From the NCBI GenBank assembly GCA_944320135.1, contig CALUGI010000025.1:1-46598 (forward strand): a stretch of DNA of 46,598 bases, given 5' to 3'. Shown piece by piece: positions 1-44,727 of this stretch. The translations under genes were made by a program, and so were the position numbers. Origin of the DNA: an uncultured Phocaeicola sp. GTDB lineage: Bacteria > Bacteroidota > Bacteroidia > Bacteroidales > Bacteroidaceae. The notes under the pieces are model-generated. The model saw nothing but the letters and a program-made list of their open reading frames with translations, ran no database searches and was not told the origin of the DNA. Each line of letters starts with the position of its first letter. Position 1 is the stretch's first letter.

Positions 1-171
1 ACAAACTTCCGCCGAACAAGCAAGAAAAGGCCGACGGTTTTTTTCAACAAAAAACGAAAAAAACAAAGAAACTACTGGAAACCAAACCTATATACATGCA
101 AGAAAACGGAACGGGGGAAAAACGCAATGAAAAGTATACACCTTTATATATAGAAAGAATCCTCATCAAAG
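1..171. other. Gene-free left edge with two repeat units
   Basis: No coding region is visible. Bases 2-45 hold two units of the 22-bp-period intergenic repeat family, one starting at 2 (CAAACTTCCGCC) and one at 24 (GAAAAGGCCGACGG). The rest is A-rich and lies downstream of the minus-strand CBS-domain gene. Confidence 0.6.
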
Positions 172-2489: not shown

Positions 2490-2518
2490 ATCTTTCTCAT
2501 TCTAAAAATCCGTTCTGA

Positions 2519-2649
2519 AAAACGCCCGCGCATTTTAACCGAAACGCGCGGAACTTTCAACCAAAGCGCGAAGGCATACATCTGAAACGCGGGCGCATCT
2601 TTCATGCAAAGCCAAACAATTTTTATAGAAACCTCAAAGTTTTCTTATT
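2519..2649. repeat. Array of six degenerate 22-bp repeats between lysR and xusA
   Basis: Successive units begin at about 2519, 2541, 2562, 2584, 2606 and 2628, so the step is 21-22 bp throughout. The best units start GAAACGCGCGG (2541) and GAAACGCGGGCGC (2584), and each carries a TTT tract about 14 bases later. The later units lose the GC core. The array ends at the putative -33 position of the xusA promoter. Confidence 0.75.
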
Positions 2650-6619: not shown

Positions 6620-6706
6620 GAAGCGTCCCGGCGTTTTGCGGAAATGCCGGGACGCTTCAACCGGAATGTCGGGACGTTTTTCAAAAACGCCGGCACGAAC
6701 ATTTAC
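6620..6706. repeat. Four-unit degenerate ~22-bp repeat between xusB and xusC
   Basis: Units start at about 6620 (GAAGCGTCCCGGCG), 6641 (GAAATGCCGGGACG), 6664 (GAATGTCGGGACG) and 6685 (AAACGCCGGCACG), giving steps of 21-23 bp. CGGGACG occurs at the same place in units two and three. The array fills almost the whole gap between the two genes. Confidence 0.75.
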
Positions 6707-7966: not shown

Positions 7967-10900
7967 ATGAGCAATATATTTCGCGGCATATTAGCTTTCT
8001 TCTGCATGGCGCTGCTCTGTGCAGCGGCCCCGGCACACGATGTCACGTTCAACCATCTTTCCACCGGGAACGGCCTGTCGCAAATCTCGGTCAACGATGT
8101 GTATGTGGACGAGAACGGGCTGGTGTGGATAGGCACGCGAGAAGGCTTGAACCGCTATGACGGAAACGGCATCAAAGTCTATCGCATGGAAAAAGGAAAT
8201 CCGAACAGCCTGTTTTCCAACCAGGTGCTGAAAGTGACGGGCGACAAAAGCGGGCATCTCTACCTGCTCTGCGTAGACGGGATTGCCCGCTTCAACATGC
8301 GGACAGGACACTTCGACACCATATTCCGAGGAAACGTTTCGGCAATGCACTGGCACGAAGGTCTCTACGCGGCACGCGGCAACGAAATCTTTCTCTATGA
8401 CACGGAGAAGGAGGCTTTGGAATCGTTTTACCGCCTTCCTGCAGGAGCAATGCTGTCAACCATCTTCTTCGATTCCGAAAAGAACTTATGGATAGGAACG
8501 GAAAACGACGGGCTGTTCCGCCTTTCTCCCGAAGGCTCGCTCACGCATGAAATAAAGGAAGAACATATTTCCGATGTGTTTGAAGACTCAGCCCGCAACA
8601 TTTGGGCCGGCACATGGAAAACTGGCATACACCGCCGCCAAACCGATGGAAAATGGACAAACATAAGGGCGGGGAACGGCTCAATATTGTCGGATTTTGT
8701 AAGATGTTTTTGTGAAGACAACCGTGGCAATCTGTGGATAGGCACTGCCGAAGGTCTGGACTGCATGGACCGCACGACAGGCACCTTCACGCATTATGGA
8801 GCCGGGAACGGCCCATACAGTCTGTCGCACAAATCAGTATGGTGCATGAAGAAAGACGCTCAAGGCACTATCTGGGCAGGCACCTATTTCGGAGGTCTCA
8901 ACTATTTCAATCCCGAATATGCCATCTATACCGTGTTCAGCCAGTCGGAAAAGGAATCCGAGGGGCTGAGCAGCCCGATTGTAGGCAATATGCTGGAAGA
9001 CAAGCGCGGCAACATCTGGATATGCACGGAAGGCGGAGGCTTGAACGTGTTCAACCGAAAAACGGGGAAATTCCGCTGGTATGTACACAATCCATCGGCC
9101 AACAGCATCTCGCACGACAACGTAAAAGCAATATGGTACGACGAAGAAGCGGACGCCGTCTGGCTGGGACTCCACCTGGGAGGTCTGAACAAGCTCGACA
9201 TCCGAAGCGGACGGTTCACCTGTTACCGCCACGAAAGCGGAAACGAGCATTCAATTCCTTCAGACATCGTAAGAGACATACTTCCCTACAAGGACAGTCT
9301 CATCATAGCTACTCAAAACGGGGTGTGCATGTTCTCGAAAGCCACCGGAGCGTGCAGGCAAATGTTCCGCGAAAAAGAAGAAGGAAGGAGGATTCGTATG
9401 GTGGCCGACCTCGAATTCGACCGGGACGGAGTGCTCTGGATGGCAGTAACGGGCGAAGGGGCTTTTTCTTACAACCTCAACACAGACGAACTGACGCATT
9501 ATCCCTATCGGAAAGACGGAAAAGGCATCAGCAACAGCAACGTGAACAGCATCTTCTGCGACCATGAAAACCGGATGTGGTTCGCCACGTCGGGAAGCGG
9601 ACTGGACTGCATGGACAGAAATACCGGAGAATTCCGCAACTACGACGCTAAGCGCAACGGCCTGTCAGGAGACTGCATCTACAAGATATGCGAAAACGAC
9701 AATCGGGAACTGCTCCTTACCACCAACCAAGGCTTCTCCCGTCTCGACCTTCAGTCAGGAACCGTGCGGAACTACGTGTCGGCGAACGGTTTTCCCCTGA
9801 CTGCAGTCAACGAAAACGCGCTTTTCGTATCCGCAGACAAAGAGGTGTTTTTAGGCGGAATGTCAGGTATGGTCATGTTCTCCCTGAAAAGTTTGGACTA
9901 CCACCCGCTCCCCTTTCCCATCGTTTGGTCGAAACTGATAGTAAACGGAAAGGAGGTGCTCCCGGAAGACGAAACCGCCATCTTGACCAACACGCTCAAT
10001 TACACCTCCAAGATTGCCCTGAAAGCGAACCAAAACATGTTCAGCCTATATTTCTCCACGTCCAACTACATCCCGGAAAACCGGGAAACGATGGAATACA
10101 TGCTGGAAGGCTTCTCCGACAAATGGACAAGGGTGCGGGAACAGCCTGTCATCACCTATACGAACCTGAACCCTGGCACATACACTTTGCACGTCCGTTC
10201 GTCCAATCCTGCCAGCTTAAGCAATCCCATTCGGATGACAATCGAAATAGAACCGCCTTTCTACGCCACATGGTGGGCTTATACATGTTATGCGACTCTG
10301 CTTGCAGGCATTATTATCTACTTGATGCGCACTTACCGGACGCGAGTGAAACTCCAAACGTCGCTGGCCTACGAACAACGCCACCTCCAAGACATTGAAA
10401 ACCTGAATCAGGCGAAGCTCCGTTTCTTCACCAGCATATCCCATGAGTTCCGCACTCCGCTTACATTGATAATCGGCCAGCTGGAACGCCTGATGCAAAA
10501 TTCTCAAATTGCACCTTCCGTCTACTCCAAAATATTGCTGGCCTATCAAAGCAGCGTGCAGCTGAAAGAACTCATCAGCGAACTTCTTGACTTCCGCAAG
10601 CAGGAACAAGGCAAGATGAAGCTGAAGGTAAGCCGGATGAATATCGTTGAATTTCTGAACGAAACCTATCTCCTTTTCCAGCCTTATGCGGAAAGCCGGA
10701 AAATCACTCTCGAATTCTCATCCGAACAAAACGACATTGAAGTGTGGTTCGACTGGCAACAAATGCGCAAAGTAATCAACAATCTGTTGTCGAATGCGCT
10801 CAAACATGTATCCGCAGAAGGAAATGTTACACTAAAAGTGTGGGAAACCGACGGGAAAGCATGGTTTTCTGTAGAAGACAACGGCTCAGGCATTTCAGCC

Positions 10901-13600: not shown

Positions 13601-13644
13601 TGCATTATGCGGAAACAAGCCGCAAGAAAAGAAAAGATGCTGAG

Positions 13645-13710
13645 AAAAACTTCAAGTTCCGCCGGAAAAACATCTGAACGCCGCCGGAAAAACTTCGCGG
13701 CACGCCGAGC
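13645..13710. repeat. Degenerate 21-22-bp repeat array before the dcw cluster
   Basis: GCCGGAAAAAC occurs at 13661 and again at 13683, exactly 22 bp apart, and a third AAAAAC at 13645 is 21 bp before that of the first. Seen on the minus strand the units read TTTTTCCGGC, the TTT-rich end of the unit found elsewhere, so this array may be in the opposite orientation. Confidence 0.65.
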
Positions 13711-21361: not shown

Positions 21362-22633
21362 ATGGACCTGCTAAAAAACTTTTTCAAGGGCGACAAGGCT
21401 ATCTGGATTATTTTCCTATTTCTGTGCCTGATTTCGGTCATCGAAGTGTTCAGCGCGTCAAGCAGTCTGTCCTTCAAGAGCGGAGACCATTGGGCGCCGA
21501 TAACCAACCACCTGACCATGCTGCTGGTAGGAGCGTGCGTGGTATGGATTGTGCATAACATCCCTTGCAGATGGTTCAAGACGTTCATCGTGCTGCTTCC
21601 CATCTCGTGGATACTGCTCGTCGTCGTGCTGATAATGGGGATTGCCGCCGGGGGAGCGAAGCGATGGATTGATTTAGGATTCGTCCAGTTCCAGCCCTCC
21701 GAGGTGGGAAAGATGGCCACCATCATCACCGTTGCGTTCATTCTGAGCAAAATGTATTCGGAAGAAGGGACAGACAAGCGGGCGTTCAAGTTCATTCTCG
21801 GAGTGACCGGAGCCACATGCCTGCTGATATTCTCGGAAAACCTGTCTACTGCCGTCCTGCTGGCCGTGGCAGTCTATCTGATGATGATTATAGGCCGCAT
21901 CCCGTTCAAGCAGATGGCAAAGCTGACCGCCACGGGAGTTGTCGCCGTATCGCTGATTGTCGGCGCAATATGGTTCATTCCGGCAAACGTATGGAAAGAA
22001 ATCAAAATAAAACGCGCTGTCACGTGGAAAGAACGCATTGCAGACTTTAGCAACAAAGAGAAAGTGCCGGCCGCACAGTTCGACATGGAAAACAACGCGC
22101 AGGTGGCTCATGCGAACATCGCCATCGCCACGAGCAACGTGTTCGGGAAAGGTCCCGGAAACAGCGTGCAGCGCGACTTCCTGTCGCTGGCGTTTTCCGA
22201 CTTCATCTACGCCATCATCATTGAAGAAATGGGATTAGTGGGAGGCGCGTTCGTGGCCCTGCTCTACATCCTCCTGCTGATGCGCATCGGACGGATAGCC
22301 AACAAATGCGACAAGCCTTACTACATATTCCTGATTATGGGCATCGGCTTCCTCTTGGTGACGCAGGCATTGTTCAACATGCTCGTCGCCGTAGGAATCA
22401 TGCCCGTCACCGGCCAGCCTCTTCCGCTCATCAGCAAAGGAGGAACGTCTACGCTAATCAACTGCGTATATATCGGTATCATACTGAGCGTGAGCAGGTA
22501 TGTGAAAGAGCAGGAAGCGCTCAAAGCACAAGAGGCCCTCGCCGCGCAGGAAGAAAGCCCCGGCAAGACGCAAGAAGAAGCGGCCCTGCCTGAAAGCCCG
22601 AACGCCCCCGACGCAAACGCCCCGGCACTTTAA
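21362..22633 (+). CDS. ftsW: Septal peptidoglycan polymerase FtsW (SEDS family)
   Basis: A 423-residue membrane protein with about ten helices that polymerises lipid II at the division site together with FtsI. SEDS features include GGAKRWIDLGFVQFQPSEVGK (about residues 98-118) and the C-terminal MPVTGQPLPLISKGGTS segment (about 343-359). The large periplasmic loop lies at about 220-290. After the last helix the protein has a polar tail of about 45 residues (379-423) rich in Ala, Gln, Glu and Pro, with EALKAQEALAAQEE repeated-looking sequence, longer than usual. The stop codon abuts a repeat array. Confidence 0.93.
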   Translation: MDLLKNFFKGDKAIWIIFLFLCLISVIEVFSASSSLSFKSGDHWAPITNHLTMLLVGACVVWIVHNIPCRWFKTFIVLLPISWILLVVVLIMGIAAGGAKRWIDLGFVQFQPSEVGKMATIITVAFILSKMYSEEGTDKRAFKFILGVTGATCLLIFSENLSTAVLLAVAVYLMMIIGRIPFKQMAKLTATGVVAVSLIVGAIWFIPANVWKEIKIKRAVTWKERIADFSNKEKVPAAQFDMENNAQVAHANIAIATSNVFGKGPGNSVQRDFLSLAFSDFIYAIIIEEMGLVGGAFVALLYILLLMRIGRIANKCDKPYYIFLIMGIGFLLVTQALFNMLVAVGIMPVTGQPLPLISKGGTSTLINCVYIGIILSVSRYVKEQEALKAQEALAAQEESPGKTQEEAALPESPNAPDANAPAL

Positions 22634-22635
22634 GG

Positions 22636-22735
22636 GAAACGCGGGCAACTTCAAGAAAAAGGCGGCGGCATTCCGAAACAAAGCGCAAGCGTCTGAAGAA
22701 AGGGCAAAAACCCGAAACAAAACGCTGACGTTCAA
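22636..22735. repeat. Five-unit degenerate repeat array between ftsW and murG (period 19-20 bp)
   Basis: Units start with GAAA or GAAG at 22636, 22655, 22675, 22695 and 22714, a step of 19-20 bp rather than 22. They share a GC-rich core (GCGGGC, GGCGGCGGC, GCGCAAGCG). The array starts three bases after the ftsW stop and ends just before the murG promoter element. Confidence 0.65.
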
Positions 22736-22746
22736 AGTTCTTTTTA

Positions 22747-22754
22747 TAACTTTG
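22747..22754 (+). promoter_or_regulatory. Internal dcw promoter element upstream of murG
   Basis: TAACTTTG is a perfect Bacteroidetes -7 element 20 bases before the murG ATG. The -33 region is poor. With the 141-bp gap it suggests that murG-murC-ftsQ-ftsA can be transcribed separately from the first half of the cluster. Confidence 0.5.
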
Positions 22755-22774
22755 TAACCCAAAAGACAACAATC

Positions 22775-29394: not shown

Positions 29395-29439
29395 CGGCGA
29401 AGGCCACGGAGTTTACATGACGCTCCGTGGCCTTCGCCG
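29395..29439. terminator. Bidirectional hairpin between the YqeY-domain gene and the fimbrillin-like gene
   Basis: A perfect 17-bp stem (29395-29411 with 29423-29439) around an 11-base loop lies in the short gap between convergent genes. No long T tract follows on either strand. Confidence 0.75.
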
Positions 29440-30939: not shown

Positions 30940-31668
30940 TCAAATAAACAGTTCCTGCAACACGGACAGAGACTTCAATTCAGGGAATGCAGGCAAATGG
31001 AGCCGATAATATTCCATAACCACCTCTACACAGCGGTTGCGCTCTGCACGGCTCATGGCAAACAGGCGCATCGTTTCATAATTCATCCGCATCAGCTTGA
31101 GAATCCGCGACGATTCTTCCCGCGAAAGGAAGCGGCCGTGCGACGGTTCACGCTCCACAAAACACGCATTCAGCATGTCGAAAAAAAAGCCGGGGGAATA
31201 GCCGTCCAGATTGGGGTAAAAGCCGAGGAAGCGGGACAGGCGGATCAGAAACACCAGATGGAAATTAGAGAAGTCGCGCGTGCAGGCATCCAGCCAACGG
31301 ATGGAATAGACAAGATAGGCGAAAAGCGGCGCATTGCCTCCCTCTTCCGGCAAAGCGCGATAGAGGAACTCGGCAAGAAACATGGAGATGCCCATCTTGT
31401 AAGGGTGGCAGGGAAGGCTGTCGAGCGAATACCACACCCTCGACTCTCGGACGGGGTGCAGCCCGGACTTCGGACGGACGTCCGCCTCGAACTCTACCAG
31501 CGAGAAGGGACGGAACAACGCCGCCCCAGCCGCCGTTTTGCGCGAACGGCGCACGGCGGGTATCAGGAAAGAGGCATGTCCGCCCTGTTCCGTATAGACA
31601 TGCGCGATATTCGACTTGTCGCTGTATTTCACCACATACAACACGACGCCATGAAACTTCTGTAGCAT
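30940..31668 (-). CDS. recO: DNA repair protein RecO
   Basis: A 242-residue recombination mediator that helps load RecA with RecF and RecR. The N-terminal OB-fold (about 1-80) starts MLQKFHGVVLYVVKYSDKS, and GGHASFLIP and FSLVEFEADVRP belong to it. The helical C-terminal domain includes FAYLVYSIRWLD and FYPNLDGYSPGFFFDM. The zinc-binding CxxC pairs of some RecO proteins are absent. The ATG at 31668 is chosen because the frame extending to 31815 would translate a 22-bp repeat array into an Arg-rich leader and cross the promoter. It is followed downstream, across a gap, by the peptide and fimbrillin-like genes on the same strand. Confidence 0.88.
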   Translation of the reverse strand: MLQKFHGVVLYVVKYSDKSNIAHVYTEQGGHASFLIPAVRRSRKTAAGAALFRPFSLVEFEADVRPKSGLHPVRESRVWYSLDSLPCHPYKMGISMFLAEFLYRALPEEGGNAPLFAYLVYSIRWLDACTRDFSNFHLVFLIRLSRFLGFYPNLDGYSPGFFFDMLNACFVEREPSHGRFLSREESSRILKLMRMNYETMRLFAMSRAERNRCVEVVMEYYRLHLPAFPELKSLSVLQELFI

Positions 31669-31676
31669 AACCAGAG

Positions 31677-31708
31677 CAAAGTTACGCAAATCCGCCGGAA
31701 CCGCCAAA
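31677..31708 (-). promoter_or_regulatory. recO promoter
   Basis: On the minus strand TTTG (31705-31708), 20 bases, then TAACTTTG (31677-31684): a full match to the Bacteroidetes consensus. The -7 element ends only eight bases before the ATG at 31668, so the message would have a leader of a few bases or none. Confidence 0.65.
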
Positions 31709-31751
31709 CCGAACCGCCTCCGCCGAAAAGACGGGCGGAAAAACCCGCCAT

Positions 31752-31817
31752 GACGAGCGGTCGGCTTTCTCCGGACGAGCGGTCGCGTTTTCGGGGAAAA
31801 GCGGTCGCGTTTCATCC
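31752..31817. repeat. Three clear 22-bp repeat units upstream of recO
   Basis: Three adjacent units of exactly 22 bp at 31752, 31774 and 31796. AGCGGTCG recurs at 31756, 31778 and 31800, and a TTT tract follows at the same place in each. Units one and two both begin GACGAGCGGTCG; unit three begins GAAAAGCGGTCG. Looser GC-rich copies extend on both sides (about 31690-31840). Confidence 0.85.
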
Positions 31818-31919
31818 TGTCCGCGCCCGCGAAACGATACCTTTACATACGAGAAATCCGGACGGGCGCAGAACAGGAGGCCGCTTCCGCATTCTCTTTC
31901 AAAAAAATCTTCCAAATAT

Positions 31920-32130: not shown

Positions 32131-32385
32131 ATGGCAAATCACAAATCATCTATCAAAAGAATCAGACAAGCTGAAAAAAGAAGACTTCACAACAGATATT
32201 ATGCGAAAACGATGCGTACAGCTGTGAAGAAACTTCGCGCGACTACAGACAAGACGGAAGCTGTAGCAATGTATCCGAGCGTACAGAAATTGCTGGACAA
32301 GCTGGCAAGCCGCCACATCATCCACAAGAACAAAGCAAGAAACTTGAAGTCGAAGTTGTCAAAGCACATCAGCAAGTTGAGCTGA
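32131..32385 (+). CDS. rpsT: 30S ribosomal protein S20
   Basis: An 84-residue, strongly basic, helical protein that binds 16S rRNA in the small subunit. It starts [20 protein letters not shown], the usual S20 opening, and ends with the [18 protein letters not shown] segment. The length is normal. No separate promoter is visible between tRNA-Glu and this gene, and a terminator follows, so it is probably made from the tRNA transcript after processing. Confidence 0.96.
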
Positions 32386-32412: not shown

Positions 32413-32440
32413 AGGCTGGATTTTTCAATCCGGCCTTTTT
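32413..32440 (+). terminator. Rho-independent terminator after rpsT
   Basis: A 10-bp stem (AGGCTGGATT at 32413-32422 with AATCCGGCCT at 32427-32436, one G-U pair) with a four-base loop, followed by a T run to 32440. Confidence 0.85.
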
Positions 32441-32566
32441 GTGTTTGCAGGATGCCGCCCGCGCGCATCCGCCCGCAATGCGCCGGCTCTGCATTCGGAC
32501 ACCGCATTCGGGCCGACATATCAATTTTTTACACGCTCACCAAGCAGTTTTGTCCGGGATTTTTCG

Positions 32567-37599: not shown

Positions 37600-37621
37600 G
37601 ACGTTATCAGCCCTTGTTTCC

Positions 37622-37690
37622 GCAAGCCGCCGCTTTTACCTCCATCTTTGCCGGCCTTTTTGCAAAAAGCCGCCGTCCCTAAAATTTCAT
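37622..37690. repeat. Weak copy of the ~22-bp intergenic repeat
   Basis: GCCGCCG at 37626, GCCGGCC at 37650 and GCCGCCG at 37669, each followed by a T-rich part or next to an A-rich part. Steps are 24 and 19 bp, so membership in the family is tentative. Confidence 0.4.
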
Positions 37691-40008: not shown

Positions 40009-40067
40009 TTTTCCACAGGAAATATTTACATCGATGCAACTTTTATTGGGAAGGCCGCCGTCTGAAA

Positions 40068-40133
40068 GAAACGACCGCCCGCACAAACGCAAACGGGCGG
40101 CCGCTTTTCAGAGAACGACCGCCCGCTTTTTCA
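40068..40133. repeat. Three 22-bp repeat units downstream of the beta-galactosidase gene
   Basis: AACGACCGCCCGC occurs at 40070 and 40114, and the related AACGGGCGGCCGC at 40092: all three are spaced exactly 22 bp. The outer two are identical over 13 bases. T runs follow the second and third. Confidence 0.85.
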
Positions 40134-40165
40134 ATCTCGATAGCAAGGGCACCGAATATCAACGC

Positions 40166-44365: not shown

Positions 44366-44414
44366 TTTTATCAAATCCCTTTCCGAAGCGGAAAAAGGTT
44401 TCGGACTTCCGGAT

Positions 44415-44479
44415 GAAACGCCCGCACGTTACGCTGAAAAGCGAGGGCATTCCTATCGAAACGCCCCGACGTTTTTCCG
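44415..44479. repeat. Three 21-22-bp repeat units between the lytic transglycosylase and DUF2007 genes
   Basis: Adjacent units at 44415 (GAAACGCCCGCACGTT), 44436 (GAAAAGCGAGGGCATT) and 44458 (GAAACGCCCCGACGTTTTTC). The third shows the GAAACG...CGTTTTTC dyad typical of the family. Confidence 0.85.
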
Positions 44480-44496
44480 CCCGGATACGCCCTTAT

Positions 44497-44727
44497 TCAC
44501 GGCTTCCTTTCAGCGACAACTTTTTTGGCATACACTTCTTCTTCCTTGTTCACCATCACCAGCACGTTGCCTGCCGTCCCGGAATAAGGAGAAGCGACCA
44601 CCGATGCCGTTTCGTCTTTCAAGATAGCGTCTACACCTGCCGATGCCAGCAGTCCTTTCACCAGTTCAGCTTCCCAAAGGTCACCTCTGAACACTTCCAC
44701 CAAAGCGTCATAATCATTCGTTTTCAT
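44497..44727 (-). CDS. DUF2007 protein (putative signal-transducing protein)
   Basis: A 76-residue soluble protein. DALVEVFRGDLWEAELVKGL, followed by ASAGVDAILKDE and the strand NVLVMVNKEEEVYAKKVV, fits the DUF2007 alpha-beta fold, which is related to the ferredoxin-like PII signalling fold. Function is not established. A consensus -7 element lies 48 bases upstream, so the gene may be transcribed alone. Confidence 0.75.
   Translation of the reverse strand: MKTNDYDALVEVFRGDLWEAELVKGLLASAGVDAILKDETASVVASPYSGTAGNVLVMVNKEEEVYAKKVVAERKP

Follow-up and report, generated by a model that had tools for sequence, protein, structure and literature searches.

Phased ~22-bp repeat arrays between the genes of a Phocaeicola genome and arrays of the same pitch in other Bacteroidales

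Repeat arrays in the window

The window (the whole 46,598-nucleotide stretch analysed here) represents contig 25 in the draft genome (2.92 Mb) of an uncultured Phocaeicola sp., and its genes include a cluster for cell wall and division to which rsmH, ftsW, and murG belong. The first-pass annotation had reported tandem degenerate units of about 22 bp in at least eight intergenic gaps. The eight sites listed there were each compared with 200 dinucleotide shuffles, using a unit profile from whose training the window had been left out. The features, all given without strand, are as follows.

1..72 (extent by eye): weak array at the window start; chain score 15.1 for 1-120, p ≤ 0.015 with 200 shuffles
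2516..2602: four-unit array in a divergent gap, steps of 22, 22, and 21 bp; chain score 46 bits, p ≤ 0.005 for 2490-2680
6620..6658: single stem-loop, its arms with the unit layout, not an array; GAAGCGTCCCGGC...GCCGGGACGCTTC read directly, profile p ≤ 0.005
13640..13707: array of ~2.5-3 units that diverge from the genome-wide unit, upstream of rsmH; Tandem Repeats Finder period 22, 2.5 copies, score 64; profile p ≤ 0.114
22634..22743 (by eye): array lying between the ftsW stop and a promoter-like box before murG; p ≤ 0.005 for 22630-22760; chain from the initial scoring, 22654-22696
31684..31814: main array of six units, the last three containing AGCGGTCG at exact 22-bp steps; chain score 47.6 bits, p ≤ 0.005 for 31690-31860
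32453..32495: possible two-unit array; chain score 17.8 bits, p ≤ 0.045 for 32440-32560
37620..37663: possible two-unit array; chain score 18.0 bits
40063..40132: three-unit array, the second unit inverted (cores X, X', X); p ≤ 0.005 for 40040-40150
44390..44500: five-unit array, steps of 22, 21, 22, and 24 bp; chain score 43 bits, p ≤ 0.005 for 44380-44500

Five of the eight proposed sites (2519, 22636, 31752, 40068, and 44415) thus reached p ≤ 0.005 as arrays and the site at 2 was weak, whereas that at 6620 proved to be a stem-loop and that at 13645 was recognised by Tandem Repeats Finder only. Among four stretches outside the listed sites and scored alike, three gave p values of 0.56–0.73 and one (32440-32560) p ≤ 0.045; further two-unit chains lie at 29397, 32453, and 37620. 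The main array is situated between recO and tRNA-Glu/rpsT. Its three copies of AGCGGTCG at 31756, 31778, and 31800 follow one another at exactly 22 bp, as had been noted, and the array is longer than the extent first given (31752-31817). That no array lies inside a gene holds here with a qualification: a longer version of the recO frame (30940-31815) overlaps the main array with its 5' end, and in this frame the match to RecO begins only at residue 53, at about base 31659.

Two further observations concern these sites. The ribosomal protein S20 gene near the main array is better assigned to 32131-32385: the family is matched more closely by the 84-residue frame beginning at 32131 than by a 57-residue call from 32212, whose match starts only at profile position 27. 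In the array at 40063-40132, the inverted middle unit could in principle pair with the unit on one side or the other, in the way of mutually exclusive hairpins; complementary outer units with one unit between them were also seen by eye at C2:5527, C1:20837, and C2:44709 of the same genome.

Pitch, composition, and placement of the arrays in the genome

The pitch was measured in the window plus 400 kb of the same genome (447 kb), comprising 176 gaps with 43,043 bp of intergenic DNA as delimited by a home-made gene caller. By autocorrelation, the intergenic identity at lag 22 was 0.2898 versus 0.2602 in 50 dinucleotide shuffles (z = 13.3), with z values of 9.4, 5.1, and 6.5 at lags 21, 43, and 44, respectively; a peak at 21–22 bp over shuffled controls had been anticipated from the window. 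Coding DNA gave an identity of 0.2472 at lag 22 with no peak, showing 3-bp periodicity alone. Ungapped tandem segments (score, at least 11) numbered 21 at lag 22 versus 0.2 in shuffles, together with 5 at lag 21, 12 at lags 43–44, and 0–2 at each remaining lag of 15–60. Over the whole genome, a strict two-unit pattern found 84 matches (some overlapping at one place), one match when read backwards, and 12 when the spacing was lengthened by 5 bp.

The unit of this genome, AAAnGCssssGCnTT, is degenerate and carries ~11 bits of information as judged by motif learning. Its positions 8–14 are G or C in 81–92% of units, and the four central positions (10–13) stay G or C, the choice between the two being nearly free. 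Chaining of units in the 447-kb sample, with a profile whose training DNA was the DNA it was applied to (the shuffle test of the window excepted), yielded 74 arrays with 291 units. Their steps measured 22 bp in 106, 21 bp in 41, and 23 bp in 22 of 217 cases, under a chain score that favours 22 bp; the autocorrelation and the tandem-segment counts have no such preference. The gaps held 130 chains versus 21 in reversed gaps, and 157 chains were found in 404,640 bp of coding DNA versus the 130 in 43,043 bp of gaps, i.e., chains are ~8 times denser between genes than within them, in line with the enrichment suggested at the outset. Arrays were present in 73 of the 176 gaps and accounted for ~15% of the sampled intergenic bases (6418 of 43,043); extrapolation gives ~480 arrays for the whole genome.

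Cores of one array resemble each other only a little more than cores of different arrays do: a direct match of at least 8 of 9 positions was found in 4.7% of adjacent and 1.3% of between-array pairs, and an inverted match of the same quality in 6.5% and 1.2%, respectively. Among the core differences between adjacent units, exchanges of G and C formed the commonest class (419 of 892; transitions, 258 of 892). This lead is unlike the expected outcome of mutating copies, and it is supportive rather than a proof, as the profile itself selects G+C cores.

With respect to genes, arrays occupied 17.7%, 13.5%, and 14.5% of the bases of divergent, tandem, and convergent gaps, respectively, and their orientation relative to the genes was evenly divided (18:19 among 37 tandem-gap arrays). 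In tandem gaps they began at a median of 20 bp past the stop and kept at least 20 bp (median, 119 bp) from the next start; in divergent gaps the distance to the nearest start was 11–176 bp. The ftsW–murG gap of this genome is ~100 bp longer than those of relatives, and the extra length is filled by the array. No array was seen by eye in the ftsW–murG gaps of four relatives (L029–L032), of which the last three have short gaps, whereas in L029 the stop is immediately followed by the promoter-like box.

Arrays of the same pitch in relatives and before viral genes

As far as searched, the unit type described above is confined to this genome, whereas the pitch is not. The own-type pattern gave 0–6 matches in 60 other genomes of the genus (reversed control, 0–4), and in a phylum-wide sample of 147 others the count did not exceed 15 (control, 11); a stricter version had five matches here, one in another genome (G021), and none in the other 58. 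When the gaps of 77 further Bacteroidales loci (locus length mostly ~20 kb) were pooled, peaks nevertheless appeared at lags 21–22 and 44, and the ungapped tandem segments of relatives (score, at least 11) numbered 32 at lag 22 versus 1.2 in shuffles. Lags 14 and 24 were raised as well in the pooled data (z = 6.2 and 9.7), but fell to 0 and 2 segments once low-complexity repeats had been dropped, when 27, 5, and 3 segments remained at lags 22, 21, and 23, and 0.57 per other lag. Same-pitch arrays occurred in 25 of the 77 loci. The 17 Phocaeicola loci showed a weak peak (z = 3.5 at lag 22), and 18 loci sampled from the same class peaked at lag 21 (z = 5.0; −0.8 at lag 22), a peak that may be due to codon periodicity; one of these (L123, from another family) has a 22-bp array at 10571, which reads as palindromic with units such as AAACCTGCTCAGGTTT. 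No peak was found in 17 pooled loci of other classes or in two 50-kb pieces of E. coli; one other-class locus taken alone (L149) gave z = 3.6 with its best lag at 21. Within the genus, another genome (G009) has near-identical 22-bp units starting GAAAACGGCGGTTT at several loci, e.g., C73:17195-17249, and these constitute a second array type in the genus.

A motif-free set of 53 arrays from relatives was used to characterise period and symmetry; 18 of them came from genomes picked because they showed arrays, and the 32 from unselected murG loci were counted apart. With lags 20–24 allowed, the period was 22 in 42 arrays, 21 in six, 23 in three, and 20 and 24 in one each, and 27 arrays were palindromic at p ≤ 0.05, with ~3 expected. 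The 26 others, including long ones (L062 and L037), were not significantly palindromic. Among the 32 arrays from unselected loci, 17 were palindromic and 26 had a period of 22.

Several genomes have strict sites of their own. In G212, ACGATTACTAATCGT occurs 112 times on the two strands (control, 0), the site being ACGATTA-S-TAATCGT with 14 palindrome bases and a C/G centre; allowing up to two mismatches and any centre gave 128 matches, versus four in a backwards control. The 39 fetched loci (21 + 18), with 103 copies, carry three copies at 25 loci, four at three, two at five, and one at six. The 64 within-cluster intervals are uniformly 23 bp long; two centres are T and the others C or G, and a single site lies inside a short predicted ORF. 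The spacers are variable (33 of 41 distinct; mean identity, 42%), some of their words recur, and the flanks, both sides pooled, are weakly conserved. The 41 genes beside 21 clusters belong to varied families, as seen in the 25 commonest of 76 families. Near-invariant palindromes beside variable spacers tip the balance toward selection on the site; recent spread with exchange of units, which the recurring spacer words would fit, is conceivable as well.

In G210, GATATC pairs at steps of 21–23 bp were found 297 times (control, 0), the step being 22 bp in all matches listed. In the fetched part of this genome, 38 of 42 intergenic GATATC sites have a partner at exactly 22 bp, and the density of GATATC is 2.44 per kb between genes versus 0.18 in genes. 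These arrays directly adjoin polypurine/polypyrimidine repeats such as AGAGAGGAGAAAG at three places (L183, 3457; L185, 16414; L187, 1762), and one GATATC stretch is shared between G215:C95 and G210:C4/C12, MAGs of different origin, possibly through a mis-binned contig. In B. cellulosilyticus, several unit types coexist in one genome, among them GTTTCA-N5-TGAAAC at 22 bp (16 and 17 matches on the strands; control, 0).

Units are gained and lost as wholes. Between two loci that are 92% identical (L037 and L039), ~6 units in the one correspond to one in the other, whole units being present or absent, and a 21-bp tandem duplication (L037, 1260-1583; L039, 7020-7212) occurs twice in one and once in the other, which is possibly the birth of an array. 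Two further loci (L052 and L065; 86%) have a unit type in common and differ in unit number, and the arrays of some relatives (L062 and L184) consist of near-identical copies. From the whole-unit differences between close relatives it follows that units come and go, a behaviour compatible with a bound array and with a selfish repeat alike. In another pair of genomes (G011 and G041; 95% identical), 63 of 88 gaps could be mapped and contained just three indels longer than 6 bp; no synteny was found among the 20-kb starts of 20 genus genomes.

When viral contigs were scanned with the B. cellulosilyticus pair, a single contig (L247) was found, in which the pair occupies the stretch from 99 to 61 bp upstream of a gene for a 117-residue protein with a Cro/CI-type HTH. 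A further scan returned this contig together with eight further loci that encode relatives. With L256 (25% identity) omitted and the identical regions of L254 and L255 taken as one, seven distinct upstream regions of 200 bp each were examined. Self-match over lags 15–30 was best at 22 in six of the seven, with half-sites specific to each member, and the lag-22 score of these six was reached by 0–3 of 1000 shuffles each; the seventh (L250) showed no lag-22 signal (reached by 492 of 1000 shuffles) and a stronger match at lag 15. The chromosomal rule of a fixed 22-bp pitch with a free half-site therefore also holds before these viral genes. By analogy, the viral pairs may be operators on which dimers two turns apart touch, and their position before Cro/CI-type genes suggests the class of protein that would bind the chromosomal arrays. 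The ACGATTA and GATATC array patterns had no match in the viral contigs. The viral HTH protein was sought in six genomes with at least some arrays, and the search, run without a positive control, returned an empty answer; either the chromosomal binder of these genomes is something other than a direct homologue, or the homologue was missed. No 22-bp sites were found upstream of the sole HTH gene beside a G212 site (L259, XRE-type) or of a G210 HTH gene in L187. The former (L259, 2544-2700) is preceded by repeated ATGCA/TTTGCA words without a 22-bp step.

Interpretation and comparison with known systems

We consider it somewhat probable that the arrays are operator-like strips to which dimeric HTH proteins of lineage-specific specificity bind cooperatively. 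The arrays would be double-stranded DNA elements, strips of 2–8 operator-like sites, each of them a 15–17-bp palindromic or near-palindromic stretch fit for one HTH-protein dimer. The step of 21–23 bp, two turns of DNA, would place every dimer on the same face of the helix, where adjacent dimers could touch and bind cooperatively, and half-sites would change from genome to genome at a constant pitch because the binder differs between lineages. The most likely class of binder would be the Cro/CI-type (XRE) proteins, repressors whose dimers are known to touch and bind cooperatively on neighbouring sites. Since there may be a few hundred strips per genome, the role would probably be global, namely nucleoid packing, or silencing and insulating between genes.

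The idea of a protein-binding array on one helix face, already raised from the window, thus draws some support from the layout, the pitch, the indifference to strand, and the near-invariant palindromes of G212; the two-turn spacing of a Cro/CI-type operator is present, and palindromy at p ≤ 0.05 in 27 of 53 arrays. It is weakened by the 26 arrays that are not significantly palindromic and by the failure of the searches described above to find a cognate chromosomal protein. The degenerate, ~11-bit units of the present genome, the stem-loop pairing of some of them, and the deviating viral member L250 also speak against it, and the several unit types in the single B. cellulosilyticus genome cannot be explained by one protein.

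A possible, though rather unlikely, alternative is that the arrays are selfish or neutral repeats, either minisatellites or MITE-like elements in the manner of BrickBuilt, propagated by slippage or transposition with a ~22-bp mutational step; the copying machinery would then set the pitch, and nothing would bind. The variable copy number of L037 and L039, with a duplication present once or twice, and the near-identical copies in L062 and L184 are consistent with such an origin, as are the common spacer words and weakly conserved flanks of G212 and the distance that arrays keep from the next start (at least 20 bp in tandem and 11 bp in divergent gaps). Set against these are the cores, scarcely more alike within than between arrays and differing most often by G–C exchange, the almost invariant G212 palindromes between spacers at 42% identity, and the recurrence of a single pitch across unrelated sequences. 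A match to a transposable element was looked for by two features, the RAYT gene and terminal inverted repeats, and neither was found. Matching the flanks of 74 arrays for terminal inverted repeats gave a mean of 5.99 versus 6.30 with shuffled partners, and scores of at least 10 in none of the 74; RAYT (Y1 transposase, PF01797) had no match in the present genome (G000; 92.8% complete), in a search whose control was positive in five of 14 named genomes.

An element acting at the RNA level, as tandem hairpins or terminators in transcripts, appears improbable. Some neighbouring units are complementary and form terminator-like stem-loops (e.g., 6620-6658 and C2:60822), inverted core matches are enriched among adjacent units, and tandem-gap arrays begin shortly after the stop; over all 50 arrays of relatives, compensatory pairs are slightly raised (53 versus 41.4), a value reached by 41 of 500 shuffles. 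The 27 palindromic arrays, however, show no excess of such pairs (19 versus 21.1 in shuffles), and no excess complementarity was found along the palindrome in 290 own units and none that was clear along adjacent own units. The even orientation and the density in divergent gaps, as high as in others, likewise disagree with transcript elements, and Rfam at its gathering score matched just a tRNA in the window. Still a little less probable is sequence-independent mechanics, in which alternating AT- and GC-rich blocks would bend or melt the DNA (as curvature or a supercoil sink) and histone-like proteins would bind by shape: the own genome does keep mainly the strong/weak pattern of the core, with W/S signals peaking at 21–22 and 42–44, but the 11-bp W/S peak expected of phased A-tracts was not seen (detrending makes short lags hard to read), and exact letters are kept in the GATATC and ACGATTA arrays.

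Several other candidates fitted poorly. CRISPR repeats and spacers measure ~25–40 bp each and are accompanied by cas genes, whereas here repeat plus spacer totals just 21–23 bp, at dozens of loci. A simple minisatellite, with units as mutual copies, is disfavoured by the core matches given above (4.7% versus 1.3%), although L062-type relatives look copied. An intrinsic terminator, which would sit 3' of genes with strand polarity, is disfavoured by the similar density in divergent gaps and the 18:19 orientation, despite the median start 20 bp after the stop in tandem gaps.

Returning to operator-like strips, a bolder and as yet doubtful extension is a chromosome-wide Bacteroidales system, in which phage-type Cro/CI-like dimeric repressors, adopted and then replaced lineage by lineage, would coat hundreds of intergenic operator strips while the two-turn pitch is kept and the letters turn over completely between species. 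If so, a code for DNA packing or gene insulation would reside in the spacing and not in the sequence. Sequence is the usual means of recognising intergenic elements; in these arrays a spacing is what is conserved, so that they are missed when sequences are compared between species. Bacteroidales is an order abundant in the human gut, and if a protein binds the arrays it would concern a large, as yet unassigned part of the chromosome biology of this order; the G212 and G210 sites are ready baits for it. Were the arrays unbound, one would have to explain how a mutational process comes to have a step of 22 bp.

In the open-access literature covered, BrickBuilt of P. gingivalis, also a Bacteroidales, was the sole near match recognised, and no report of the pitch was found. 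As far as described in the part of the source consulted, BrickBuilt is made up of 23-nt direct repeats that are imperfect, some of their positions being conserved and others variable; it occurs at 19 loci, always between genes, and includes a leader, a tail, and terminal inverted repeats besides matches related to transposases (PMC4596501). The present arrays resemble it in being intergenic repeats of 21–23 bp (mode, 22; 23 in G212), and differ in the 22-bp step, the absence of inverted flanks, and ~480 extrapolated loci, a distinction drawn from the description and not from the repeat sequence. A check for leader- or tail-like segments in 91 own flanks gave 13 cross-array matches at E ≤ 0.01, the eight matches listed being 14–25 bp long. 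REP/BIME elements with RAYT are, in the part of the account consulted, short intergenic palindromes of 20–40 bp in high copy (PMC3733652), and the arrays share with them short intergenic palindromes in high copy, whereas the present genome lacks PF01797, its units lack hairpin covariation, and the pitch is constant at 22 bp. A survey of human microbiomes, seen in part, lists 250 palindromic candidate RNAs, 230 of them predicted terminators, with four example candidates found mostly or only in Bacteroidetes (PMC8040213).

On the operator side, the lambda comparison differs in scale: two control regions on one phage stand against dozens to hundreds of chromosomal gaps that are not tied to promoters. 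In lambdoid phages, tandem operators such as lambda OR and OL comprise two or three 14–17-bp palindromes about two turns apart, bound by cooperative Cro/CI-type dimers, with a sequence specific to the phage. The viral L247-type pairs are likewise limited to one pair upstream of a gene, with no homologue of the encoded protein found in the six genomes searched, and in six of seven members they resemble the arrays in their 22-bp pitch with free half-sites; GTTTCA-N5-TGAAAC is common to L247 and the arrays of B. cellulosilyticus.
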